64,000 nucleotides of DNA. Source: Streptomyces sp. NBC_00659. GTDB taxonomy: Bacteria; Actinomycetota; Actinomycetes; Streptomycetales; Streptomycetaceae. The notes under the pieces were generated by a model. That model saw only the letters and a list, made by a program, of their open reading frames with translations, had not been told where the DNA came from and did not search any database. This document shows positions 19,193 to 34,529 of this stretch, piece after piece. The stretch covers positions 3,844,001-3,908,000 of the forward strand of contig NZ_CP109031.1 in the NCBI RefSeq assembly GCF_036226925.1. Reading direction: 5' to 3'. The position numbers and the translations under genes were made by a program. Positions within the stretch are counted from its first letter, which is position 1. Every line of letters begins with the position of its first letter.

Positions 19193-19368
19193 GGCGGGAC
19201 TGAGCGCCTCGATGGCGCGGGCCGCCGCGGACGGCTGACCGCCACCCGGGCGACACATCGAAGCAACGAACGCAACGAACTCAACGTGAAATATGCCATC
19301 GGGGACTCCCGTGTCTCTGGCCAGCAGGTCTCTCTCCTTGGTGGCCCGGCGGCAGTACGGTGTCCCCC

Positions 19369-20385
19369 ATGCGCCCCGACACGCCTGCCGAGAACGTCGA
19401 CCACACCGCCGAAGCGGCTCGCCTGGAGCGGACCGCCGGCCTGTACCCGGAGGACGCCGAGCACCTGCTCCTGCAGGCCGCGGCCCACCTCGAACTGGCC
19501 GGCGACCGCCCCGGCGCCACCACCCTCTACGACCGCCTGCTCGCCTCGGACACTCCCCTGGAGAAGCCGTATCTCGTCCGCGCCCTCAAGGCGTCGAACC
19601 TGTGGGAGTACGGCCACGAGGCCGAGGCCCGCGCGATCATCGACGGGGTCCGGGCGGCGGCGCCCCGCGACCCGGCCCCCTGGGTGATCGTGGCGGAGGC
19701 CCTGGAGTCGCACGACGAGTTGGAAGCGGCACAGGACACCTTCACCGAGGGAACGACCCTGCTCCTGACGGACGTCCCGGAACCCCCCTACTCCACGCTC
19801 CCCCTCCTGTTCGGACGTCACCGGGTGCGCCGCATGCTGGGCGCGGCGCACGACGAGTGGGACGCCCTGGCCGACACCCTGCACTCGTCCCCGATCTCCC
19901 TGGACGAACTCCACGACCCGAAGCGCGTCTGGTCCCTCGGCTCGGACAACCCGGCGGAACTCCAGGCCGAGATCAGCCGCCTCCAGGCCGAACTGGGCAC
20001 GTACCGCGAGGCCCTGTCGCGCCCCTTCCCGGTGGCGGTCCTGCACTGGTCGGCCCCCGAACTCACGGAACTGACCACCGCGTACCCGGATCTCATCGCC
20101 GAGTACCCGTCCCACGACGAGCACCTCGCGACGATAGAGGCGTCCCTGCGCGAACTGGCCGGCTCCGGCACCCCGAACCTCGGCATCGTCACCGCCACGG
20201 TCCCCTCCTACGAGGCCTTCGCCGCCTCGGAGGCCTCCTCCCCCTCGGACACGACCCTGCTCCCCCAGTACGCGACGACCCTGGCGGCCCGGGGGCTGGC
20301 GGTCGCCTGGCCGCCGCAGCGGACGAGCGAGTGCTGGTGCGGGTCGGGGGTCTCTTATGGGGAGTGCCACGGCGTGGGGGCGTAG
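19369..20385 (+). CDS. SEC-C motif protein with TPR-like helical N-terminus
   Basis: A 338-residue cytosolic protein. The N-terminal half consists of helical repeats resembling TPRs (LLLQAAAHLELAGDRPGATTLYDRLL). A coiled segment follows (AELQAEISRLQAEL). The C-terminus ends in a zinc-binding SEC-C motif, ECWCGSGVSYGECHG. SEC-C modules bind zinc and often tether proteins to the translocase or ribosome, but many SEC-C proteins have no known role. ATG 19369 is preferred; GTG 19360 lies three codons upstream. It is the last recognisably core gene before the accessory island. Confidence 0.78.
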   Translation: MRPDTPAENVDHTAEAARLERTAGLYPEDAEHLLLQAAAHLELAGDRPGATTLYDRLLASDTPLEKPYLVRALKASNLWEYGHEAEARAIIDGVRAAAPRDPAPWVIVAEALESHDELEAAQDTFTEGTTLLLTDVPEPPYSTLPLLFGRHRVRRMLGAAHDEWDALADTLHSSPISLDELHDPKRVWSLGSDNPAELQAEISRLQAELGTYREALSRPFPVAVLHWSAPELTELTTAYPDLIAEYPSHDEHLATIEASLRELAGSGTPNLGIVTATVPSYEAFAASEASSPSDTTLLPQYATTLAARGLAVAWPPQRTSECWCGSGVSYGECHGVGA

Positions 20386-21017: not shown

Positions 21018-22571
21018 ATGCCTTACCAGTCCAGCGCCAACTGGCAATACGACGTCCCCACGACCGGCAGCACGCACCTGCCGCCAGATGCGGGCTACGG
21101 AAGGGCTCTGACCAATCAGGGCTATGGCTTCGAGGTCGCTGTCGCTGACCTCATCGACAACTCCATCGACGCCGAAGCCAACAAGATCGTCGTCCACTTC
21201 CTGCGTGACGCCGGCCGGATCCTCACGCTGCTGGTCATCGACAACGGCAAGGGCATGGACGAAGAAGGGCTCGACGCTGCGATGACGGTGGGGCACCGCC
21301 GTGACTACGGTGAGCGCGCCCTCGGTATGTACGGCACCGGCCTGAAAGCCGCTTCGCTTTCTCACGCCTCTTCACTCACCATAGCCAGCCGCACCAGGCG
21401 AAGCCGCGCTGCGGGGCGCCGCCTCACGGCCGAGGGCATCGCAGACAGCTTCCGCTGCGACACCGTCGACCCACGGTACGCGCAGGATCTCGTAGACCGT
21501 TACGACGGGATCATCGAGTGGCAGGGAACGATCGTGCGCTGGGATGGCGTGCGGGCCTTCGAGACGGTCGCGCGCGGCCAAAGCGACCAGTTCCTGTCGA
21601 AGGCCATTGCCCGCCTTGAGACCCACCTCGGCCTCTACCTCCACCGGTATCTACAGCGGGGCCTCCGGCTCGACATCGCCGTGTGGGATGTGGGAAGCGG
21701 AGAGCAAGGCCTGGGCGAGGAAGTGGATCACATCGCTGTTGAGGCCCTGGACCCCTTCGGGTACAAGGTGCCGGGCAAGGCGGGCTACCCCAGAGACTTC
21801 ACAGCCCCGGTGGAAGGGCTGGGAGACCTCCGCCTGACCGCTCACATCTGGCAGGCCAAGTCCAAGCAGGCGGGCTTCCGTCAGATCGGCTCGCTCGCCG
21901 AAAGGCAAGGTTTCTACTTCTACCGGAACGACCGCCTCGTGCAGGCGGGAGGGTGGAATGGCTGGAGGAATCCGGAGGGGCACCATGTTCTAGCGCGCGT
22001 CGCCGTAGATCTTCCGTCTCGCGAGAACAACGTCCTGAGCCTCGATGTGAAGAAGGAGAGAGTCACCGTCACTCCGGCCTTCACGGACGGCCTGGACAAG
22101 GCGACTGACTCCAGGGGAAGCCACTTCCGGAGTTTCCTGGCCGACGCCGAGACTGCCTACAGAGACGGTTCGAGGCGTAACGAGATCGTACGCAAGCCCG
22201 TCACTCCCCCGGGGAAGGGTCTGGATCCCAGGGTCAAGCGCATCATCAAGGAAGAGTTGCCGGAGAAGCCGGGCGAAGAGCCGATCACCTTCACGTGGGG
22301 CACTCTTCCCCGCGACCAGTTCTTCGGCCTAGACCGCGAGAACAATACGGTCATCCTCAACAGGACCTACCGGGACGACTTCAACGACGGCAGGCATGGT
22401 GGAGCGAATGACGCTCCCGTGACAAAGACCCTGCTGTATCTGCTTCTTGAGGACTGCTTCGGGCTCGGGCGCTGGGAGCGCAGCCGTCAAGACCGCTTGG
22501 ACTACTGGAATACCATCCTCTTGTCCTCAGCGGAAGCGCAGCGCATCCGGCGTGCGCAGCCACTCTCCTGA
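21018..22571 (+). CDS. GHKL ATPase of MORC/paraMORC type (restriction-associated)
   Basis: A 517-residue protein with a complete Bergerat ATP-binding fold. The N-box is ADLIDNSIDA (residues 43-52), the G1 box is DNGKGM (75-80), and the G2 box with ATP lid is YGTGLKAASLSHAS (105-118). The order and the 'DLIDNSIDAEA' wording are those of MutL/MORC/Hsp90-like ATPases, not of sensor kinases: no His-phosphorylation domain is present. The region from about 200 to 400 should be the S5-like domain. paraMORC proteins are known from gene neighbourhoods of restriction systems with SF2 helicases and methylases. GAGGA precedes ATG 21018. It is followed after 53 bp by the Z1 gene, which makes cotranscription likely. 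Confidence 0.85.
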   Translation: MPYQSSANWQYDVPTTGSTHLPPDAGYGRALTNQGYGFEVAVADLIDNSIDAEANKIVVHFLRDAGRILTLLVIDNGKGMDEEGLDAAMTVGHRRDYGERALGMYGTGLKAASLSHASSLTIASRTRRSRAAGRRLTAEGIADSFRCDTVDPRYAQDLVDRYDGIIEWQGTIVRWDGVRAFETVARGQSDQFLSKAIARLETHLGLYLHRYLQRGLRLDIAVWDVGSGEQGLGEEVDHIAVEALDPFGYKVPGKAGYPRDFTAPVEGLGDLRLTAHIWQAKSKQAGFRQIGSLAERQGFYFYRNDRLVQAGGWNGWRNPEGHHVLARVAVDLPSRENNVLSLDVKKERVTVTPAFTDGLDKATDSRGSHFRSFLADAETAYRDGSRRNEIVRKPVTPPGKGLDPRVKRIIKEELPEKPGEEPITFTWGTLPRDQFFGLDRENNTVILNRTYRDDFNDGRHGGANDAPVTKTLLYLLLEDCFGLGRWERSRQDRLDYWNTILLSSAEAQRIRRAQPLS

Positions 22572-22624
22572 CACCTGCGGCACAGCCATCCCGATTGACC
22601 ACTGATCCGGACTGAGGACCTTAG

Positions 22625-25618
22625 ATGAGTGACACCCCAGCCACCGCGCTCCTTGAGATTCATACCCATGCCCTGGCAGGAATGGGGAGCATCCCCCGGC
22701 ACTTTGCGCGTTGGGCCGCCCTTGCCGCAGACGAGGACTATCCGGACGCCGACCTGAGCGAGGACCTGTTTCACGCTTATCTCGCCGACGGCCACGAGGC
22801 CCTCAGCGCTCTGTGGAGTCGCCACCTCACAGCCTGGGACTTCGCTGAGGATCCTCAGTGGTCACTGACTATCCCCGCTCGCACCGACGAACGGCGTACA
22901 GCCGTGTACGACCGGCTCCAGTTCGGAAGTGACCTGCGGAAGGCGCTGGACCACGCCGTACCAGTGGCCAAGATCCCGGGCCCCACAGTGATCACACGTG
23001 AGTTCACCCCCTGGTACACCCCAAAGCGCGCAGCTGCCCGCTCTTTCTACTGGACGTCGTACGAACAGAAACTCCGTGGCAAGGGCTGGTCCGACGCAGC
23101 GGTCGCAAGCCTCGACGAGGCGAGCCGGGCAGTCGTCGAACGCCTCACCGATCCGGAGCAAGAGACGGCCCGGCAGGCAAAGGGCTTGGTCATTGGATAT
23201 GTCCAGTCAGGGAAGACTGCCAACTTCACTGGTGTCGCCGCCAAGGCTATCGACGCCGGCTACCGCCTCGTCATTGTGCTGGGCGGCACCCTCAACCTGC
23301 TGCGCGCCCAGACTCAGCGCCGTCTCGACATGGAGCTGATCGGGCAGGAGAACATCCTGCGGGGCGCCGATATCACGGACCTCGACTCCCTTGTCGGCGT
23401 GGACTATATCGGCGACGACGATTCGGACTGGCACGAGTTCGTTCAGCACGGAGCACGCCCGTCCGTGCTCGGCGCCTTCGACATCGAGCGGCTCACGACT
23501 CGGGACAACGACTACAAGAGCCTGGCACAAGGTATCCGGGCCCTTGAGTTCGAGAAGCGTGAACCGACCCGTCCGCTGCATGATGAAGCGAACCTCCACC
23601 ACGCGGCCGCCCGCATCCTGGTGGTGAAGAAGAACAAGTCCGTTCTGACCAAACTCGTCAAGGATCTCAAGCAGATCCACGGACTGCTCGGAGAGCTGCC
23701 TGCCCTGATCATCGATGACGAGTCAGACCAAGCGTCCGTGAACACCCTGGATCCCAAGAAGTGGGAACAGGGCAGCACGGAACGAACGTCCATCAACGGG
23801 TTGATCTCTCAGCTCCTGAAGCTGCTTCCGCGCGCGCAATATGTGGGCTACACGGCCACGCCCTTCGCCAACGTCTTCATCGATCCTGGTGACGATGAGG
23901 ACATCTTCCCCAGTGACTTCCTGATCTCACTTCCTCGTCCCTCCGGGTACATGGGCGCCCAGGACTTCCATGATCTGGACTCGGCGATACCCAAGGAGGA
24001 GCGCACGTACGCCAACTCCCAGGAGAAGGCGCATATCAGAGATGTCTACGAGTCGACCGGGGACCGTCTGCAGGAAGCCATGGACGCCTTCGTCCTGTCT
24101 GGCGCGCTGAAGCTGTACCGGGCCGACCACGGCGTCCCAGACGGCCCGTTCCGGCATCACACGATGCTCGCTCATCAGTCGGTACGGAGGGACGATCACG
24201 CGGATCTCGCGCTGCTCATCAACTCCATGTGGCATCAGGCGGGCTATAGCTCAGCCGCCGGGCATGAACGTCTTGCCGCACTGTGGGCTTCGGACTTTGC
24301 TCCGGTCAGTGAGGCACGCGCCTCAGATCTCCCCGCTCCCACCACTTATGAGGAACTGCGCACCTATGTGCACACAGCACATCACCGCATCGGCTCGGGC
24401 GGTCAGCCGGTCATCGTCGTCAACGGCGACTCAGACCGCTACTTCGACCAGCTGAACCTCGACTTCGACCGGACGCCGCACGTCTGGAAGATCCTTGTGG
24501 GCGGAACGAAACTCTCTCGCGGTTTCACCGTGGAGGGCTTGACCATCACCTACTACCGGCGCACCACGCAGCAGGCGGACACCCTGATGCAGATGGGACG
24601 CTGGTTCGGCTTCCGGCCTGGCTACCGAGACCTGGTCCGTCTCTACATCGGGCGGGAGGAGCCATTCGGCCGCGACCGGTACGCCGATCTGTACGAGGCC
24701 TACGAAGCGATCTGCCGCGACGAGGAGACGTTCCGGGAGCAGCTGGCCCAGTACGCCGTGGTAGTCGACGGACAGCCTCAGCTCACGCCTATGCAGGTGC
24801 CGCCGCTCGTGGCACAACACCTGCCCTGGATCAGACCCTCGGCCCGCAACAAGATGTTCAACGCGGAGCTGGTGGAGATCCGCTCTCCTGGCCGTCCCAT
24901 TGAACCCGCGTCGTACCCCGTGAACAACGCGACTCTGAAACGGAATACTGAGCGCTGGCGTACCTTGCTGAACTCGCTCAACGCATCCCCGACGACATTC
25001 AGCAATCCACCGGATGACTCCAGTTCGCTCACTCGGACCTTCGAGGCGCTGACGGGCACGGTTTCTCACAGTGAGCTTGTCAGCGCGCTCTCTCAGCTCG
25101 AATGGGAGCGCGAAGGGCACTTCGACCCTCATTTGACCTATCTCAGGCAGCTTGACGGCACGCTCGCCAAGGTCGACGACTGGCTGCTCATTTCACCTCG
25201 TCTGGCCGCTAGCACACGTGTGGAGGCTAGCGTGCTCGGTTCACTGCCGCTGTCTCTCGTCCGACGAACCCGGCAGACCGGCAAGATTTCCTTCGGCCGC
25301 ATCGCCAGCGTCGAACATCGCACTGCAGCTCAACGCCTGATCAACGGGGCGTCCTCGTCGCCGGAGGCCCAGCCTGTTCACGGCGCCGGGATCGGGGCAA
25401 CGACGGGAGTGATGCTCCTGTACCCCGTCGTGGAGGGAGACAGCCACAGCGACGTGCAGGCAGTCGTCCGAAGCGGCGCCGCCGACCCGTCGAAGATTGT
25501 GATGGCTTTCACCTTGATCCCGCCGGCTTCGGCAGCGAGCACAGACCGTCGTCTGGTGCGTTTCCGTGCCAAGAACTCGCGCGCCCATGAGGCAACGATT
25601 CCCTCGGGTTCGTCCTGA
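22625..25618 (+). CDS. Z1-domain SF2-helicase-like ATPase
   Basis: A 997-residue protein. The Walker A is GYVQSGKTANF (191-201), the Walker B-like motif is ALIIDDESDQAS (about 358-369), a TATPF motif lies in VGYTATPFANVF (about 411), and a VGGTKLSRGFTVEGL and QMGRWFGFRPGY block (about 630-665) corresponds to helicase motifs V and VI. These are hallmarks of the Z1 family, found with GHKL ATPases and DNA methylases in restriction systems. A long C-terminal region without clear motifs may contact DNA or a nuclease. GAGGACC precedes ATG 22625. A stable hairpin follows the stop codon. No nuclease motif was recognised inside it. Confidence 0.88.
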   Translation: MSDTPATALLEIHTHALAGMGSIPRHFARWAALAADEDYPDADLSEDLFHAYLADGHEALSALWSRHLTAWDFAEDPQWSLTIPARTDERRTAVYDRLQFGSDLRKALDHAVPVAKIPGPTVITREFTPWYTPKRAAARSFYWTSYEQKLRGKGWSDAAVASLDEASRAVVERLTDPEQETARQAKGLVIGYVQSGKTANFTGVAAKAIDAGYRLVIVLGGTLNLLRAQTQRRLDMELIGQENILRGADITDLDSLVGVDYIGDDDSDWHEFVQHGARPSVLGAFDIERLTTRDNDYKSLAQGIRALEFEKREPTRPLHDEANLHHAAARILVVKKNKSVLTKLVKDLKQIHGLLGELPALIIDDESDQASVNTLDPKKWEQGSTERTSINGLISQLLKLLPRAQYVGYTATPFANVFIDPGDDEDIFPSDFLISLPRPSGYMGAQDFHDLDSAIPKEERTYANSQEKAHIRDVYESTGDRLQEAMDAFVLSGALKLYRADHGVPDGPFRHHTMLAHQSVRRDDHADLALLINSMWHQAGYSSAAGHERLAALWASDFAPVSEARASDLPAPTTYEELRTYVHTAHHRIGSGGQPVIVVNGDSDRYFDQLNLDFDRTPHVWKILVGGTKLSRGFTVEGLTITYYRRTTQQADTLMQMGRWFGFRPGYRDLVRLYIGREEPFGRDRYADLYEAYEAICRDEETFREQLAQYAVVVDGQPQLTPMQVPPLVAQHLPWIRPSARNKMFNAELVEIRSPGRPIEPASYPVNNATLKRNTERWRTLLNSLNASPTTFSNPPDDSSSLTRTFEALTGTVSHSELVSALSQLEWEREGHFDPHLTYLRQLDGTLAKVDDWLLISPRLAASTRVEASVLGSLPLSLVRRTRQTGKISFGRIASVEHRTAAQRLINGASSSPEAQPVHGAGIGATTGVMLLYPVVEGDSHSDVQAVVRSGAADPSKIVMAFTLIPPASAASTDRRLVRFRAKNSRAHEATIPSGSS

Positions 25619-25633
25619 GGTTTGATTCTCTGA

Positions 25634-25673
25634 GCATCAAGGTCGGCCCGCAGTCGCAGGCCGGCCTTGATGC
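25634..25673 (+). terminator. Strong hairpin between Z1 and Vsr genes
   Basis: GCATCAAGGTCGGCC pairs with 25659-25673 over 15 bp with one wobble around a 10-nt loop, 16 bp past the Z1 stop. It lacks a T-run. It should end or attenuate the GHKL-Z1 transcript, leaving the nuclease gene on a weaker or separate promoter. Confidence 0.65.
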
Positions 25674-25756
25674 CAAGGCAAGGGGGCTCTCGCAATACCA
25701 GTCGGCAACGGACCCGCATGCTCTGCGCTAGCCCGCTTCGGTCTAGGCTCTGAGAC

Positions 25757-26218
25757 GTGGCCGATGATCCGCAGTGGGAAGCACCGGAAGGCTCCTGGGC
25801 TTCGTCCGCAGCCCGCCGTCGCAACATGCAGGCGATCCGCAGCCGTGACACAAAGCCCGAGTGGCTGATCCGGCGGCTAGTACACGCTCAAGGCTTGCGA
25901 TACCGCGTGTCCGCGCGTCCGCTGCCGGATCTTCGCCGGACGGCTGACATGGTGTTCCGTCCGGCAAAGGTGGCTATTTTCGTCGATGGCTGCTACTGGC
26001 ACGGGTGCCCCGAACACTACGTGCCGCCCAAGACGAACTCGGGCTACTGGTCAGAGAAGGTCGTGCGCAACATGCAGCGCGACCGTGATACTAACCAGCG
26101 GCTCAAGGAAGCTGGGTGGCTCGTGCTCCGGTTCTGGGAACATGAGCCGTCAGGAACCTGTGCTGACATAATCGCCGCGACGGTCCTTACGCGCCGAGCG
26201 GATTCGCGGAACCCCTGA
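25757..26218 (+). CDS. vsr: Vsr-type (very short patch repair) endonuclease
   Basis: A 153-residue nuclease of the Vsr family. The N-terminal MQAIRSRDTKPEWLIRR holds the catalytic-region Glu35. TADMVF holds Asp64, the metal-binding aspartate. FVDGCYWHGCPEHY holds His82 and zinc ligands, and the closing GWLVLRFWEHE is the family signature. Classical Vsr nicks T:G mismatches arising from C5-methylcytosine deamination. In GHKL/Z1 systems a Vsr-like enzyme may instead be the restriction nuclease. It starts at GTG 25757 with a weak RBS. Its 3' end overlaps the convergent methyltransferase gene by 69 bp, so methylase and nuclease share DNA. Confidence 0.9.
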   Translation: MADDPQWEAPEGSWASSAARRRNMQAIRSRDTKPEWLIRRLVHAQGLRYRVSARPLPDLRRTADMVFRPAKVAIFVDGCYWHGCPEHYVPPKTNSGYWSEKVVRNMQRDRDTNQRLKEAGWLVLRFWEHEPSGTCADIIAATVLTRRADSRNP

Positions 26219-27499
26219 CACAGGAAGCGACATCTGCTCAGCAGCGTTTTGACTGGTTTCACCGCCTTGCCTGTCCATTTCATACGCCTCAAGAAGTTCA
26301 TCTCGGTGATCGGGGCGCAGAACGGCAGCAATTGCCCTCCCTACCGCTTCCGCCACCGGAGGGGGAAAGGCGTTTCCGACCTGTCGATACTTCGCTGTCT
26401 TCTTCCCCTGGAACTTCCACCCGTCGGGGAACCCCTGGATGGTCGCGGCCTGCTCGACCGTCAGCATCGGCCCGGCCGCACGGAACAGATCGCGCTCAGG
26501 GTCACAGTGCTCAGGGTCATTAGCGACGCCCATGGCGTCAATCCCGAGGTCTGACCAGGCACGCTTTGCTCGCGTTGGCCCCAGGTCAGCTCCACCGTGC
26601 TTCTTCGACCCTCCTACAAGCGTGGGTGCCACACATTTTCCGAACTCTACGGCCTTCGAGGCGTCGGTGACCCACTTCTCGAAAACTTGCTCTCCCGTAC
26701 GCTGATCAGGTTTCGCCTTCTCACCCTTCCAGTTCTTGTCCCAGAACTGCTCACAGCGGAGCTTCATACTGTCGTGGAGCTCCCCAAGGACCGTAGCCTG
26801 TGGCCCCTCGAGTCGACGAGGCCAAACAAAATCGGCCCCGCTTTCACTAAGGACGTCTTTCCGGATAGCGACGAGGATTGCACGCGGGCGCAACTGAGGA
26901 ACCCCAAAATCTCTTGCGTCGAGCCTCCTCCAGACGCTCCTCATCTCCAGATCCTGCTTCTCGGGAAGCCAGTGATCTTCAACTTCCGGAACTTCGTAGC
27001 CAGACTCCCGCAGCTCACTCAGAATATATTTTCGATAGTCAATGAAAACCTCTGGCGGCTCCAGGATTCCCCTGACATTCTCAATCATTACAGCCTTGGG
27101 CTTGAGAGCCCTGACAATGCGCAAGGCATCGGGAAAAAGATCCCGCTCATCATCCTTTCCGAGCCTCTTTCCCGCCAAGGAGAAAGGCGGGCAGGGAACT
27201 CCGCCGGCCAGGAGATCGAGATCTCCTTCCTTAAGGCGAAGGTCCGCGTGTACCTTCGAACCGAGGAATTCCTTCACATCCATCGGTTCAAGGGCGTCCG
27301 CCCGCTCCTGCGTCCAGCCCGGCCACCCGCCCACGTTCGCGCTGAGGGTGCGCACCGCGTGGGCGTCCCACTCGACGAGCGCGCGGTGATCAAAACCTGC
27401 GTCATGCAGACCCACGGCTTGCCCGCCTGCGCCCGCGCAGATCTCTACCGAGGTCAGCGGTGTGGTGAACTGCGGACGCGGTCGGCCGCTGGGGCGCAT
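26150..27499 (-). CDS. C5-cytosine DNA methyltransferase
   Basis: A 449-residue Dcm-type enzyme. Motif I is ICAGAGGQAVGL (SAM binding), motif IV is GGVPCPPFS with catalytic Cys104, and motif VI is ENVRG. Motif VIII is in PQLRPRAILVA, and the closing motif X region is KYRQVGNAFPPPVAEAVG. The target-recognition region lies between about 215 and 370; its specificity cannot be read. GGAAGGAG stands before ATG 27499; ATG 27535 is an unlikely alternative. It protects host DNA in a restriction system, here presumably with the GHKL/Z1/Vsr arm, toward which it converges. It is also the last gene of the leftward arm, 145 bp after the SNF2 gene. Confidence 0.93.
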   Translation of the reverse strand: MRPSGRPRPQFTTPLTSVEICAGAGGQAVGLHDAGFDHRALVEWDAHAVRTLSANVGGWPGWTQERADALEPMDVKEFLGSKVHADLRLKEGDLDLLAGGVPCPPFSLAGKRLGKDDERDLFPDALRIVRALKPKAVMIENVRGILEPPEVFIDYRKYILSELRESGYEVPEVEDHWLPEKQDLEMRSVWRRLDARDFGVPQLRPRAILVAIRKDVLSESGADFVWPRRLEGPQATVLGELHDSMKLRCEQFWDKNWKGEKAKPDQRTGEQVFEKWVTDASKAVEFGKCVAPTLVGGSKKHGGADLGPTRAKRAWSDLGIDAMGVANDPEHCDPERDLFRAAGPMLTVEQAATIQGFPDGWKFQGKKTAKYRQVGNAFPPPVAEAVGRAIAAVLRPDHRDELLEAYEMDRQGGETSQNAAEQMSLPVSGVPRIRSARKDRRGDYVSTGS

Positions 27500-27644
27500 A
27501 GCGCTCCTTCCGGGATGACTGAAAAGCGGTGCCAAGTCTTGCAGAGGCAGCGATCGCGCCGCCTCCTAACCTCAAGAGTCTCGCACTACCACAGATTCCC
27601 GGCCGAAACTGGGGCCCCCGCCCACACCCAGACCTGCTGAAGAA

Positions 27645-29471
27645 CTAGCTGCGGCCCATGTGTCGCAGCAGCGCCTCAATGTCACCCGGCGCCAGGCCTG
27701 CCGCGACCGATGGTTCTTCTTGCAGGTCAGCGAGCTGCTGCACAGTGGGGTCATCGAGGATCTTCCCCATAAACTCCAACTTCTTTTCGAGGCGCACTGC
27801 GACCACCTCATCGATGGTGTTCCGGGCAGCCAGCACGGTGACCCGAGTGTCCGTGCCTGGTGCGAGGCCAAGGCGATGGATCCGGTCAAGGCTCTGAAGG
27901 AACCGGCCTGCCATGAAGTCGCGGTCCACATACACAGCGTCGTGGCATACGTGGTGCAGGCTGATGCCCTCCCCCAGGGTCGCCGGGTTTGAGATCAGCA
28001 CCGTGCAGCTCGGATCTTCACGGAAGCGCCTCAGCTGCTCATCCCTGTCGGGCGTACCGCCGAAAACGACCGCAGGACTGTACTTCCCCAGCATTTGCTC
28101 CAGTGTCGTCAGGCTTCGGACGAAAGTTGTCCAAACCAGCGTCTTACGGCCCCGCTCCGCATTCTCGGCGACGATCGCCACCGTTTCCTTGTACTTAGGC
28201 GACAGCTCGTAGTCCGGCAGATTCTGCATGAGCGAATAGAGAGAGCTGCCCTGCGGGATTTTCAGTGGCGGCAGCTGATACGCCAGCGGCTCATAACGGG
28301 TGCCGCCCTCAAGGAGCAGAGCAGGGCTCGTAGCCGCCATCAACAGCCGCAGCGCGGTCTTGCCCAGAGAGCTGAGATCGTCCCTCGCGGTCCCGCCCTT
28401 CATGCCTCCCACCAACGAGCTGTAGATCTCGTTGTGGAGGGGCGGCATATCGACGTACCGCATCCTGAGGTGGACCGGAGGGAGGCCGAGTTCATGCTTC
28501 GTCGTCCGGGTGAACAGCGGCCGGAGAACAGAGCTGGCATGAGCGAGGTCCCCGCCTGCCACGGCCTGAACCACGGTCCGCTGCCCGTGCCCCGGCCAGA
28601 CAAAGCCCAGAAGGTTCTCCAGGTCCTTCGAACCGTTCGGGGCCGGCGTACCGGTGAGAATCATCCGCCGCTCGGCGAGCGGTCCGAGCGCCATGCACGC
28701 GGCACCGTACGTACCTCGCGCGCCCAGCTTCATCCGGTGAGCCTCGTCCAGGATGATCATCGATGGAGCCGCCTTCAGCCAGCTGGCCAGCGTGGGCAGC
28801 GAACGGTCCAGCCTCTCGTAGTTGACGATCAGTACCTCTGCCCACTGATCCATCGACCCGTCGAGGACGTGCGTCCGCAGCGGATAGCGGAAGCACACTG
28901 CGGTCTCATAGCGCCATGACTCGTAGGCCGACTTGGGGCAGACGACCAGTACCCGGCTCACGCGCCGCTGTTCCCGCTGCGCTGCGTACACTGCCAGAGC
29001 TACGCGGGTCTTGCCCGCCCCAGGAACGCTGAAGTTGGCCCCGTGTTGGAGAGAAAGCAGCTTCGCGATGTCACGCAGCTGGAACTCGCTGAGCGAGCCG
29101 AGCGAGGCTTCCCACATGTCTCCCAGCAGGTTGACGACATCGCCCGGGGTGACCTCACCTTGCGGCTGTGCGCCGGCTAGCCGCTCTTTAACCGTGTTGG
29201 CATCCCTGACAACGCCAGACACAAGGTTCCGTAGTTCAGGAGCCCACTCCACTCCCTCGCGATGCGGCCAGCCGCCAAGAACAGCGAGATCAGCGAGCAG
29301 TTCATCAAGGGCGACCGACGCGGTGAGCGGGCCCAGCTGGCCGCCCGTACGAAAACGGGCGGCCAGCTGGACAAGATCCTGCTGATACGGGTCAGTCGTC
29401 CTCAGAACGACACGCGTACGCGTCTCGTCAAATCCCAGACGCAGGGACGTTTCGGTCGTACTGCCACTCAC
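27645..29471 (-). CDS. SNF2-type SF2 DNA helicase/translocase
   Basis: A 608-residue protein. The Walker A is NFSVPGAGKT (about 146-155) after a QLRDIAKLLSLQHGA Q-motif-like stretch. The DEAH box is IILDEAHRMK (239-248), with motif III LTGTPAPN. The C-lobe has ISNPATLGEGISLHHV and motif VI FLQSLDRIHRLG. The arrangement is that of SWI2/SNF2 translocases, many of which drive restriction or remodelling complexes. The first 110 residues are a separate domain with no recognised family. GTG 29471 overlaps the stop of the ParB-like gene by four bases, so the two proteins are probably made in fixed ratio. Confidence 0.9.
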   Translation of the reverse strand: MSGSTTETSLRLGFDETRTRVVLRTTDPYQQDLVQLAARFRTGGQLGPLTASVALDELLADLAVLGGWPHREGVEWAPELRNLVSGVVRDANTVKERLAGAQPQGEVTPGDVVNLLGDMWEASLGSLSEFQLRDIAKLLSLQHGANFSVPGAGKTRVALAVYAAQREQRRVSRVLVVCPKSAYESWRYETAVCFRYPLRTHVLDGSMDQWAEVLIVNYERLDRSLPTLASWLKAAPSMIILDEAHRMKLGARGTYGAACMALGPLAERRMILTGTPAPNGSKDLENLLGFVWPGHGQRTVVQAVAGGDLAHASSVLRPLFTRTTKHELGLPPVHLRMRYVDMPPLHNEIYSSLVGGMKGGTARDDLSSLGKTALRLLMAATSPALLLEGGTRYEPLAYQLPPLKIPQGSSLYSLMQNLPDYELSPKYKETVAIVAENAERGRKTLVWTTFVRSLTTLEQMLGKYSPAVVFGGTPDRDEQLRRFREDPSCTVLISNPATLGEGISLHHVCHDAVYVDRDFMAGRFLQSLDRIHRLGLAPGTDTRVTVLAARNTIDEVVAVRLEKKLEFMGKILDDPTVQQLADLQEEPSVAAGLAPGDIEALLRHMGRS

Positions 29472-30907
29472 CGAGAGTCCTCCACGGTCACGGCCTCCAG
29501 CAGCCAGGCCACACCGTCGCCAGGGGCAGACAGACTACGGCCGGCCTGCTGCGCAAGCTTCCGAAGACTGCCGCGGAGCTTCAGAACAGCCTCGTCGAAG
29601 GCTTCCTCATCCAGGCTGTGCGAGGTACGAGCCTGCACCAGGTCCATGACGCACTGGTCGATGCTCGCACAGGCCTCTGCCAGACGGGCGGGCGCCATCT
29701 GCTTGCGCTTCCGCAGACGGGCGCTGCGGCCGGCGGCGTCGATTGCCTCATCAAAAGCAGTCCTGGCGTCATCGAGCACGGACTGTCCCTGAGCCTTGGC
29801 CCTGTCTTGCAGTTCCGGGTTCATGCTCCGGACAGCAGCCGTGGCGCGGAGAATCCGGTCGTTCAGGGACCGGGCTTCGGAGACGGCCGAGGAAGCAGCC
29901 GGAACTGTGAGGTCATCGAAACCTGGAATCGACACCACGTCCGGCTGCGCCGCGTTGGAACCATCCGCAGCCAGAGCGGTCGGCAGGGCCCGGTCAAGGA
30001 ATCCCTCTTTGAGGAAAACCTCGTCGATGTGCCGGACATCCGTCTTGGAGAAATCGAGGAGAATCGCAGCCAGGCGGAACTCCTTGAGGACTTCGGCCTG
30101 GTCACGGTCCACAGACTCCAGCTTCAGATAGAGACGGTGAAGTTCCTTCAGACTCTCCTGGGCACCCTCCCAGTCAACCAGCTTCAGCGCCACGCCACCC
30201 CCGCTCTTGCTGCGGTCGATCAGCTCCCGGATCGTGCTCAGGATCCAGCGCTCCTGGTGGTAGGTCTTCACCTGGATGCGGAATTCCTTGGCGATCTGTT
30301 CCGGCGTCCGCCCCAGGGAAGCCTGCTCCTCCATGGCAAGGAGCCGGTTGATGTACGAGTAGTCCCGGCGGTGATCCTTGCGCAGCTGGAGAGACAGCTC
30401 CACAGCGTTGATGTCGGCCCACGTGAACGACTCTGGCAGCACGCCCACGCGCATCGACTGCACGCCTAGCCCACGCAAGGCGGCGGCCCGTGTATTGCCG
30501 TTCACCAGAATGCCCTGGTGCGTCACGAGACCAGGGTCGTTCTGGCCGAACTGCTTCAGGCTCTCCTGCAGCTTGTCGAACTCCGGATCACGCAGGTTCG
30601 GATCGGTCGGCGACGCCATGAGCAAGAACTTCAGATAGTCCTGGCTCTCCCTGGCCCACGGGTCCTTCTCCAGCGCCTCGTCCTGAGCCGCGTCGTGGCT
30701 CCGCTGAGCACGGATCCGGTGCGTTCCCGGATTGAAGTAGAGCCCACTGAGCGGCAGGTCGATGACCTCCACATGGGCCTGCTGCTCATTCCAGTCGATC
30801 GTGACCGTCTCCCTGGTGCCACCAGCGGCCTTGATCTCCTCGACCTTCTTCTTGATAAGTTCGCTGAACTCGGCCGCCCGAGGCGGCGGCGGGAACTCCC
30901 GCAGCAT
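29468..30907 (-). CDS. ParB/Srx-fold protein of the restriction island
   Basis: A 479-residue protein. The N-terminal 30-150 region has the ParB-like nuclease/CTPase fold: VEVIDLPLSGLYFNP, then GQNDPGLVTHQGILVNG and the box NGNTRAAALRGLG at 136-148. A helical stretch with RTPEQIAKEFRIQVKTYHQERW looks like a ParB-type helix-turn-helix. The rest is mostly alpha-helical and unrecognised. It is not a chromosomal ParB: there is no ParA neighbour and no parS. Comparable ParB-fold proteins occur in mobile defence loci. GGAG precedes ATG 30907, and the gene is coupled to the SNF2 gene by a GTGA overlap. Likely roles are DNA clamp, nickase or specificity subunit; none is proven. Confidence 0.78.
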   Translation of the reverse strand: MLREFPPPPRAAEFSELIKKKVEEIKAAGGTRETVTIDWNEQQAHVEVIDLPLSGLYFNPGTHRIRAQRSHDAAQDEALEKDPWARESQDYLKFLLMASPTDPNLRDPEFDKLQESLKQFGQNDPGLVTHQGILVNGNTRAAALRGLGVQSMRVGVLPESFTWADINAVELSLQLRKDHRRDYSYINRLLAMEEQASLGRTPEQIAKEFRIQVKTYHQERWILSTIRELIDRSKSGGGVALKLVDWEGAQESLKELHRLYLKLESVDRDQAEVLKEFRLAAILLDFSKTDVRHIDEVFLKEGFLDRALPTALAADGSNAAQPDVVSIPGFDDLTVPAASSAVSEARSLNDRILRATAAVRSMNPELQDRAKAQGQSVLDDARTAFDEAIDAAGRSARLRKRKQMAPARLAEACASIDQCVMDLVQARTSHSLDEEAFDEAVLKLRGSLRKLAQQAGRSLSAPGDGVAWLLEAVTVEDSR

Positions 30908-30932
30908 CGTCTTTCTCCGTCCCGTACTTCGC

Positions 30933-31622
30933 CTAGTCATCCATGTCGTCGAGCGCATCCGCCACGGTCTTCCGGGACTCCTCCGGAAGGGTCCGCAGAA
31001 TGCCCCAGAGCCGGTCAAGCGGGCTCAAGGTGCGCTGGTCGGCGGCCAGCCAGCCGGCCAGGGTCAGGCGCTCGACAGGAGACAGGGCTTCCACCATCTC
31101 CAGCACGACGCCTTGGTCGACCTCACGGTCAGTACCCCCGGCGCCGCAGCGCCTGCACTCCGTGACGAGCTGATGCTCCACCGTTCCGTCGGCAAGAAGC
31201 ACCTTGCGGCGAGCCACGTTCAGCTGCGCCTGCTCAACGCCGTCTCCGTACTCCTCGCCCGCCGCGATACCGCAGGTACGGCACAGGTAGTTGTCCCCCT
31301 GGAGGATCTTCGTACGCTGAGTGGCCGTGAGGCTGTTCTTATGCTTGGGCGCCTTCGACTGGCCCGGGATCCAGACGTCGGCGCCCCGCGTCACGAACCG
31401 CTGCTCCTGCTGCTTCAGTTCAGGGTCTTCGCGGCTCGTGTCAATACGCCAGTCATGAACCCGTAGTTCCCGGATCCGCCTGTCGATCTGCGCCACGTCA
31501 GGGAAAGCCTCACGCAGAGCGGGCTTCGTGAAGACGTTGCCCTCACCCACAACGGTCACCAGCCACAGCGCGGCCCGGGCCATGCTTCCCAGCTTCTTGT
31601 CCTGCCACGACGGCAGCGTCAT
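30933..31622 (-). CDS. Zinc-binding HNH-fold protein with catalytic residues lost
   Basis: A 229-residue protein and first gene of the leftward arm. The N-terminus resembles a winged helix (FTKPALREAFPDVAQIDRRI). A zinc ribbon with Cys114/Cys117 (CRTC) and Cys156/Cys159 (CRRC) frames the position of an HNH nuclease, but where an active enzyme has a 'HxDH' motif this one reads LNVARR, and the final H after the second CxxC is G. It therefore looks like a nuclease-dead HNH used for DNA binding or scaffolding. The C-terminus is helical. The start at ATG 31622 gives 25 bp to the ParB-like gene downstream. Whether it senses DNA is unknown. Confidence 0.72.
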   Translation of the reverse strand: MTLPSWQDKKLGSMARAALWLVTVVGEGNVFTKPALREAFPDVAQIDRRIRELRVHDWRIDTSREDPELKQQEQRFVTRGADVWIPGQSKAPKHKNSLTATQRTKILQGDNYLCRTCGIAAGEEYGDGVEQAQLNVARRKVLLADGTVEHQLVTECRRCGAGGTDREVDQGVVLEMVEALSPVERLTLAGWLAADQRTLSPLDRLWGILRTLPEESRKTVADALDDMDD

Positions 31623-31861: not shown

Positions 31862-32767
31862 ATGCCCATGACAGGCATAGTTACGGAAGGCCGTACGGAA
31901 CAAAGCTGGATATATAAGGAATTCCGCAGCAACGTTCCTCCCGCCAGGCAAGCCCTGGCCAAGGCTCTGCAGGAGATCTGCCGCTACCTGACTCCTGACA
32001 AGTCATCCAGGAACCGAGTCACTCAGGCAACGGCAGCCGCGCATCTGGGCTGCAGCGAAAGTTCCCTGTCCCGGTTCCTCAGCGGAGATACCGTCCCAGG
32101 TCTGCAGCTTGTGGAGAGCTTCTACAAGCAAGCATGCGCTGACGCTGGCAATAGAACGCTTGTCAGCGTCAGCCTGGAGAAACTGAAGGATCTCCACGCC
32201 GCAGTCCTGGCCGAACGGAGCAAGGACTGCGGTCACGCCACAGAAATCGAGGCTCTCTCTCGTCAACTGAAAGAGGCGAACGACGAGTGCGAGACACTCA
32301 GGCAAGGCGTAGCCGAACTGGCTGGTCTGCGAAGTGATGTGGCCGAACAGAAGGCCGTCATCGCGAAACTGAAGGCGGCCAGAGCCGGCTTGCGAGGGCG
32401 TCTCGCCGTTCAGGCGACGTCCGCTCCGCTGCCGGTCCCCCGCCGGAGGGGGGACCGGCAGCGGATGCGGAACGATACGTCCGCGGCGCGGCGCCTCGCC
32501 GAGCAGGCCGGAGAGCTAGGCAGGAACGGCAGGCCCGATGTGGCCTTGACCCTTCTACGTCAGACCACGGAAGCGCTCAGCCCTCGCGAGATGGCCACCC
32601 TGCTGCTCCTGCTCCGCCAGCAACAGGACGACAAGCTTGCCGACAACGTGATCCACATCTACGGCCGAGACCAGAACGACCAAGACGTTCTGCATGTCAC
32701 ATTGGTACTCCACGAGCATGGCGCCACAGAAGATGCCGGCGCCATGCTGCGGGCAGCACTCAGATGA
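31862..32767 (+). CDS. Helix-turn-helix regulator with coiled coil and C-terminal helical repeats
   Basis: A 301-residue protein. A Xre-like helix-turn-helix lies at about residues 55-85 (ATAAAHLGCSESSLSRFLSG). A long coiled coil follows (KLKDLHAAVLAERSKDCGHATE onward, written here in part, to about residue 170). The C-terminus has short helical repeats (ALTLLRQTTEALSPREMATL). GGAGG lies nine bases before ATG 31862. Proteins of this build recur in Streptomyces accessory regions and plasmids; their targets are unknown. Divergent placement next to the leftward defence arm makes control of that arm plausible. Confidence 0.7.
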   Translation: MPMTGIVTEGRTEQSWIYKEFRSNVPPARQALAKALQEICRYLTPDKSSRNRVTQATAAAHLGCSESSLSRFLSGDTVPGLQLVESFYKQACADAGNRTLVSVSLEKLKDLHAAVLAERSKDCGHATEIEALSRQLKEANDECETLRQGVAELAGLRSDVAEQKAVIAKLKAARAGLRGRLAVQATSAPLPVPRRRGDRQRMRNDTSAARRLAEQAGELGRNGRPDVALTLLRQTTEALSPREMATLLLLLRQQQDDKLADNVIHIYGRDQNDQDVLHVTLVLHEHGATEDAGAMLRAALR

Positions 32768-32831: not shown

Positions 32832-33464
32832 TTAGGTTGCCGCAGCGTCCGCCTCGTAGTACATCTGGGCGCGGTCGAGGAGTTCGTCCGGATCATGGCC
32901 TCGGTCCGCAGTCCAGTGCAGGAGATCAGAGATGAGCTCGATTGCGGACTCTTCGAGTCTGCTCCTCCACGCTTTCCCTCCCGGATGAAGCCCCCCGCCC
33001 ATCCCCTGGTAGCGCTCAAGGGCTTCGACCGCTCGCTCAACGCGCAGGCGTGCGCGATCCGCACTGGGCCCGATCTCGCACCAGACCGCTTTGCCGGCCG
33101 CCGTCAGTACAGTGCCCCATTCAATAGCCAGCGAGGCAAGCAAGTGCAGGCCACGGCCGCACTCCTGATCGCAGCCCGCAGTTCTGAGCGATGGCACGAC
33201 CGGACTCTTGTCGTGCACTTCGAGCCTCAGCCGCTCACCTGTCCACTCAAGGATCAAGGTCGCGGATGCACCCTTCCCGACATGCTTGACAACGTTAGTG
33301 GCCAACTCCGCGACCAGCAGCTCCGCCTCATCGACGGCGACAGGTGTCCCCCATCGGCTCAACTGCTTGACAGTGGCTCTCCGCAGCAAGTGCACTTCCG
33401 CCGGCGCCGCCTCGAAAGGCAGAACACTACGGAGTCGCGATTCGGTGACTTTGTAGCCGGACAT
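32832..33464 (-). CDS. RsbW/AbaA-like HATPase (anti-sigma-type) protein
   Basis: A 210-residue protein with a HATPase_c_2 domain: N-box ELLVAELATNVVKHV, degenerate G1 LEVHDKSPVVP, and G2 GRGLHLLASLAIEWG. The C-terminal 75 residues are helical and unassigned. GGAG precedes ATG 33464; upstream ATGs in the frame lack an RBS. With the divergent Xre gene and DUF397 gene it forms the three-gene set known from the whiJ and abaA paralogous clusters of S. coelicolor, which affect development and antibiotic production. Serine kinase activity on a partner is possible but not shown. Confidence 0.82.
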   Translation of the reverse strand: MSGYKVTESRLRSVLPFEAAPAEVHLLRRATVKQLSRWGTPVAVDEAELLVAELATNVVKHVGKGASATLILEWTGERLRLEVHDKSPVVPSLRTAGCDQECGRGLHLLASLAIEWGTVLTAAGKAVWCEIGPSADRARLRVERAVEALERYQGMGGGLHPGGKAWRSRLEESAIELISDLLHWTADRGHDPDELLDRAQMYYEADAAAT

Positions 33465-33506
33465 GGCTCCGACTCCTCCCTCCCGCGCCACGCACATGCT
33501 GCGCCT

Positions 33507-33522
33507 GTCGTATCCATACGAC
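33507..33522. promoter_or_regulatory. Palindrome in whiJ-like divergent spacer
   Basis: GTCGTATCCATACGAC, a perfect 7-bp inverted repeat with a 2-nt centre, 43 bp upstream of the HATPase start. It is a candidate binding site for the Xre regulator. Confidence 0.5.
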
Positions 33523-33557
33523 TGCATTGCGTAGCAGCTCCGAACGAGCATGGCATG

Positions 33558-33582
33558 GAGAAGTCTCACTGTGTAACTTCTC
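33558..33582. promoter_or_regulatory. Second inverted repeat in whiJ-like spacer
   Basis: GAGAAGT, 11 nt, ACTTCTC: a perfect 7-bp inverted repeat, 102 bp upstream of the Xre start codon. Regulators of this type often bind such spaced half-sites. Confidence 0.4.
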
Positions 33583-33683
33583 ACAAGAATCCATCGGGTG
33601 AATCTGACGGCGGGGCCACCTCTCAGTTGCCTAGCCTGTTGAGATCCTCGGGTCGGCCACCCGGCTCATAGCAAAGGAGCCTC

Positions 33684-34529
33684 ATGCCCGAACGGACCAC
33701 AACCCGCCGCCGTCAACTAGGCGCGATGATGCGCAAGTTGCGCACACGTAAGGGCCTGACCCTCGAAGAGGCCGGACAGGTTGTCGGCGTATCCAAGGCG
33801 ACGGTGAGCCGATATGAAACTCAGGCCGGGCCAGTCAAGTGGATCGTTGTCGACGCTCTGTGCCGCGAGTACGGAGCAAGTGACGCTGAGCGTCTAGCCG
33901 TTGTCGGACTAGCCAAGGACGCCAAGCAGCAAGGCTGGTGGAGTTCCTTCGCCGACTCGATCCCTGAGAGCATGAATCTGCTGCTCACGCTTGAGGACGA
34001 GGCCGTACGCGAGAGTCACTTTTCCTGCGTCTACGTTCCCGGCCTCCTGCAGACACGCGCGTACAGCACCGCGCTGCAGAAGGCGAACGAAGTACCCCTG
34101 GAGCCAGCCGAGATCGAGCGGCTGGTCGATATCCGCATGAGACGGCAGGAGATCCTCGCCCGGTCGAAGCCGTTGCAGCTGTGGGCGATCCTCGACGAGT
34201 CCGTTATCCGCCGGGTAGTCGGGTCGCCGCAGGCCATGAGGGAGCAGCTCGACCGCCTGCTCGAAGCGAGCGAGTCACGGCACATAACGCTTCAAGTGCT
34301 GCCCTTCTCGAAGGGAGCTCATGCCGCCGCGCTCGGGAGCTTTGTGATCATCGGTGGCGTCGAACCGGCACTCGACGTCACGTATGTGGACTTCCATACA
34401 GGTTCCCTGTTCCTGGAAAAGGACGAGGAACTGGAGCGATACAGACTTGCGTTCGAGTACCTGCGCGCGCAAGCGTTGGACATGGAGGCGTCCTCCGCCA
34501 TGATCCATCGCGCCCGCAAGGAGTTGTGA
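33684..34529 (+). CDS. Xre-family regulator with DUF5753 domain (WhiJ-like)
   Basis: A 281-residue protein. A Xre helix-turn-helix fills residues 9-65 (LRTRKGLTLEEAGQVVGVSKATVSRYE). A DUF5753 ligand-like domain follows, recognisable by YVPGLLQTRAYSTALQ, then RRQEILARSKPLQLWAILDE and a GSFVIIGG...VTYVDFHTGSLFLE end. AGGAG precedes ATG 33684. Its stop codon touches the ATG of the DUF397 gene. WhiJ-like regulators act with a cognate small DUF397 partner and are abundant in Streptomyces. Two inverted repeats in the upstream spacer are likely targets. Confidence 0.9.
   Translation: MPERTTTRRRQLGAMMRKLRTRKGLTLEEAGQVVGVSKATVSRYETQAGPVKWIVVDALCREYGASDAERLAVVGLAKDAKQQGWWSSFADSIPESMNLLLTLEDEAVRESHFSCVYVPGLLQTRAYSTALQKANEVPLEPAEIERLVDIRMRRQEILARSKPLQLWAILDESVIRRVVGSPQAMREQLDRLLEASESRHITLQVLPFSKGAHAAALGSFVIIGGVEPALDVTYVDFHTGSLFLEKDEELERYRLAFEYLRAQALDMEASSAMIHRARKEL

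Follow-up and report, generated by a model that had tools for sequence, protein, structure and literature searches.

A conserved five-gene restriction-like core with an optional guest module in Streptomyces sp. NBC_00659

We analysed a stretch of 64,000 nucleotides (the window; NZ_CP109031.1, positions 3,844,001 to 3,908,000) from the 9.66 Mb single-contig genome of Streptomyces sp. NBC_00659, which carries an island of seven genes. The island consists of a conserved five-gene restriction-like core, encoding Vsr, Dcm, SNF2, ParB-like and HNH-like proteins, and an optional, separable module; gene content, conservation and separability were directly observed. In the core, a disarmed HNH enzyme occupies the place where a working nuclease is usual. 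Examination of the window sequence and its open reading frames (ORFs) bore out the preliminary description, in that all seven genes are real and lie at the positions it gave:

21018..22571, forward strand: GHKL (MutL/MORC-like) ATPase, MzaB-like, optional guest module (HATPase_c_3, 83 bits)
22625..25618, forward strand: island gene following the GHKL gene
25757..26218, forward strand: Vsr-type endonuclease, core (TIGR00632, 135 bits)
26150..27535, reverse strand: C5-cytosine methyltransferase (Dcm), core, probable GCCGGC specificity (DNA_methylase, 187 bits)
27645..29471, reverse strand: SNF2-type SF2 ATPase, 608 amino acids, core (SNF2-rel_dom, 61 bits)
29468..30907, reverse strand: ParB-like protein, 479 amino acids, core (NCBI names of relatives; PADLOC MTase_II, 5e-4)
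30933..31622, reverse strand: winged helix and degenerate HNH (pseudo-nuclease), 229 amino acids, core (conserved Cys, Arg for the catalytic His)

The GC content of the island is 61-65%, versus 66-76% in the flanks, and the named proteins most closely related to those of the island are from Streptomyces. The Vsr and Dcm genes converge and share 69 bases at their 3' ends, the ParB-like stop and the SNF2 start overlap by 4 bases, and 25 bases separate the HNH-like gene from the ParB-like gene, whose start is at 30907 rather than at the ORF start 31018. The earlier division into two arms was partly upheld: the GHKL module is optional and separable, but Vsr, which had been placed in the same arm, sits in the five-gene core. 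In L034/L161 (9.1-14.7 kb of L034) and in L185 (13.2-18.8 kb), SNF2 and Dcm are separated by roughly 5.6 kb of additional sequence, and the core thus tolerates splitting.

The degenerate HNH protein and its partners

All four zinc cysteines were kept in 106 of 106 aligned HNH-like rows, in which the catalytic-His column held Arg in 98, His in six and other residues in two. Within the operon-linked clade, 97 of 98 members had Arg at this column, the window included, so that the protein is degenerate, as had been claimed. The rows with His belonged to a separate paralogue clade of seven, the seventh member of which has Arg. One old loss of the catalytic His in the operon-linked clade would be the simplest reading of these sequences. 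Because six of the seven paralogues keep His and those scanned weakly matched Pfam HNH or HNH_5 (best 21.0 bits versus a cutoff of 21.4), homology to HNH nucleases runs through the paralogue. HTH_39 gave a weak match in 32 of 54 HNH-like members.

The paralogue adjoins a second Dcm in six of seven loci (L232, L237, L239, L241, L244 and L245), where both are inserted beside the core at about 13-17 kb; L041 has the paralogue without a second Dcm. Catalytic His/Asn are kept except in L232 (Arg). Paralogue and second Dcm look like a separate HNH-type restriction-modification pair.

The evidence for a ParB identity of the 479-residue protein is suggestive. Some of its relatives are named ParB by NCBI, PADLOC MTase_II matched its ParB-like stretch, and a (G/A)NTR motif, compatible with a CTP-dependent DNA clamp, was found in all 100 rows. 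Neither profile searches of Pfam and PDB nor an initial hhalign run gave a match; a second run was co-linear with chromosomal ParB through a GERR-like motif and the helix-turn-helix (HTH) but not significant (E 0.14-0.19). Thus, the ParB fold proposed earlier gained a motif and a co-linear alignment and lacked a statistically significant match. The SNF2 protein had been described as intact, and Walker A, DEAH/DESH and motif VI were all kept in 101 of 101 rows.

Methylase specificity and a possible mode of restriction

The Dcm recognition motif (A/G)PT(L/I/V)VGGS(K/R)KHGGADLGP was present in 109 of 118 rows and in 11 of 11 rows from ParB-less loci linked to NaeI, which makes GCCGGC the probable specificity of the island methylase. 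No NaeI or NgoMIV restriction endonuclease match was found in this genome, and NgoMIV-like genes occurred only alongside NaeI (4/4 genomes).

We tentatively put forward a nuclease-free form of restriction, a possibility that we hold with considerable doubt. The methylation mark would be enforced without any restriction nuclease: the disarmed HNH, fixed in the family by the His-to-Arg change, would recognise unmethylated GCCGGC and then load a ParB-type sliding clamp and the SNF2 motor, which together would keep out invading DNA mechanically. Restriction by HNH-ParB-SNF2, clamp loading and the mode of block are steps that we infer. The ParB-SNF2 pair would be a portable enforcement cassette that trades places with NaeI at the shared mark in Streptomyces and, across at least three phyla, attaches to other methylase/Vsr or nuclease partners.

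A rather improbable alternative is that Vsr is the core's own restriction nuclease, guided by HNH-ParB-SNF2. It is the sole recognised nuclease common to all 80 core loci, and Iyer 2008 (PMC2292703) counts Vsr-superfamily proteins as predicted endonucleases in operons of this type. However, Vsr was just as present in the ParB-less NaeI loci (11/11, L147-L157). The window protein scored above the TIGR00632 cutoff (97.85 bits) and aligned with E. coli Vsr (1cw0, 3e-19), fitting a predicted role in VSP repair; the alignment covers the GC-aromatic-WH and aromatic-W-x-EK stretches.

In minimal loci, no recognisable nuclease besides Vsr was found. In Caulobacter, ScmA is known to methylate YGCCGGCR as a solitary enzyme and to be functionally linked to a Vsr-like protein (PMC12907096).

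Distant ParB-SNF2 pairs on plasmids (seven relatives examined) lie in restriction-like settings, with DUF3883 (L277-L279) or with a MutH-like enzyme and PLD (L283). The Rhizobium plasmid has Dcm, Vsr, a 288-residue gene, ParB, SNF2 and DUF3883; the Mesorhizobium plasmid has HNH, ParB, SNF2, a transposase, DUF3883, Vsr and Dcm; and the Azospirillum pair is accompanied by DUF3883 and Dcm, with no Vsr seen. NOV_C/DUF3883, described as a novel restriction endonuclease domain (PMC3710099), occurs in nine of the 80 named core loci; it may have been the original nuclease, which the clade of the window then lost. In Bacillota, a compact restriction-like set built around ParB-SNF2 occurs on a Lactiplantibacillus plasmid (L283:2070-9320), where Dcm and a ParB-like gene are joined by Vsr, a MutH-like enzyme and an SNF2 protein with a fused PLD domain. 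In addition, an unnamed family of ~280-320 residues with no Pfam match (L277:5057-5920, L281:599-1558, L055:8352-9197) immediately precedes ParB-SNF2-DUF3883 in two Streptomyces loci and in Alphaproteobacteria, where it takes the place of the HNH-like gene.

It should be noted that several points weigh against restriction by HNH-ParB-SNF2 on a GCCGGC mark. Among the plasmid relatives, Dcm occurred in four and Vsr in three, and the Kozakia, S. albidoflavus and Paracoccus pairs (L280, L281, L282) had neither in the stretch examined. Of 16 ParB-less Dcm loci, five had no NaeI either, namely G048:C4 and four whose Dcm has diverged, and L159 has Vsr and a 39% Dcm with neither ParB nor NaeI; thus, the Dcm/Vsr pair can stand without either. 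No Pfam ParB match was obtained in 55 members, in addition to the hhalign values above (E 0.14-0.19). The GCCGGC specificity is inferred from the motif, and we take GCCGGC to be the NaeI/NgoMIV recognition site. Five of seven Streptomyces phages (L290-L296) did not avoid GCCGGC, and its pooled count was unremarkable (486 versus 582, rank 25/42). All counts across relatives were taken without correction for relatedness. As a separate observation, CTCGAG was missing from all seven phages (0 versus 258.7 expected), and AGGCCT, CAGCTG and ATCGAT were also low in the pooled set.

Distribution and integration hotspot

A search of 396 genomes across the phylum gave matches in three only, all of the same genus. 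Another search recovered loci in Saccharopolyspora, Lentzea, Nocardia, Labedaea, Microbispora and Sinosporangium, and further loci in Kitasatospora, Streptacidiphilus, Actinacidiphila and one bin labelled Clostridia. SEC-C borders the island on the left, and a pair of genes, HATPase_c_2 and DUF5753-HTH, borders it on the right:

19360..20385, forward strand: SEC-C motif protein, 341 amino acids, left border of the hotspot (Pfam SEC-C, 26 bits)
31862..32767, forward strand: HTH protein with coiled coil, divergent from the core operon (HTH_31, 27 bits)
32832..33584, reverse strand: HATPase_c_2 (anti-sigma-like) gene, border (Pfam, 39.5 bits)
33684..34529, forward strand: XRE-DUF5753 regulator, right border (DUF5753, 177 bits; NCBIfam Sco1979 family below cutoff)

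SEC-C was present in 78 and DUF5753-HTH in 22 of 101 sampled genomes, and in 19 of these 22, by manual count, the two borders lay no more than 37 kb apart on a single contig. The same site, bordered by SEC-C, was found in L284-L289. L284 is a nearly empty hotspot, which also has the HATPase_c_2 gene; L285-L289 each carry one gene of 1034-1062 residues (for example, L285:1645-4761), and the three of five products scanned were all PLD-SF2 helicase-DUF3427 proteins, another restriction-like cargo. The hotspot houses NaeI sets and PLD-helicase genes as well. The coiled-coil HTH gene lies divergently upstream of the HNH-like gene in 54 of 80 loci, had no match in 12 ParB-less Dcm loci examined (L147-L158), and is the likely controller of the core operon.

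Comparison with known systems

Profile scans for defence-system families covered nine island proteins. MZA comprises mzaABCDE (Gao 2020, as cited in PMC9523054). The GHKL ATPase matched MzaB (PADLOC 93 bits; NCBIfam 107 bits, far below the cutoff of 850), and a second MZA family matched at 209 bits (PADLOC) and 277 bits (NCBIfam, cutoff 1500). Neither MzaD (DUF4420) nor MzaE (AIPR) was found among the nine proteins, and MZA does not include the five-gene core; the AIPR and PD-(D/E)XK genes reported missing are indeed absent from the island.

For DISARM, Zorya and Druantia, the other defining genes were unmatched among these proteins (PADLOC). Dcm strongly matched DruM (357 bits), and DruE was not among the matches listed for the nine proteins (for Dcm, the best 25 of 58 families); SNF2 weakly matched ZorD (60 bits) and DrmD (47 bits); and DrmMII-like and 12-bit DrmMI-like matches came without DrmA/DrmB. 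GmrSD type IV enzymes join ParB-like and HNH domains (PMC12839542) and combine DUF262 with an active HNH and no methylase, whereas the island has separate proteins, a degenerate HNH, no DUF262 among its listed matches and its own Dcm.

In line with the preliminary description, the available portion of Iyer 2008 (PMC2292703) groups GHKL, SF2 helicase, Dcm and Vsr in paraMORC operons, and it describes another type of operon in which MORC is accompanied by SWI2/SNF2 and HNH; unlike in the island, that portion describes no ParB-like partner or pseudo-HNH. NaeI/NgoMIV-like type II sets share the methylase family, recognition motif, Vsr and hotspot with the island, which has HNH-ParB-SNF2 in place of the restriction endonuclease. 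The preliminary description could match the set to no named system; undescribed as far as we searched, the island is a real, conserved restriction-modification variant with an optional MZA-like guest.
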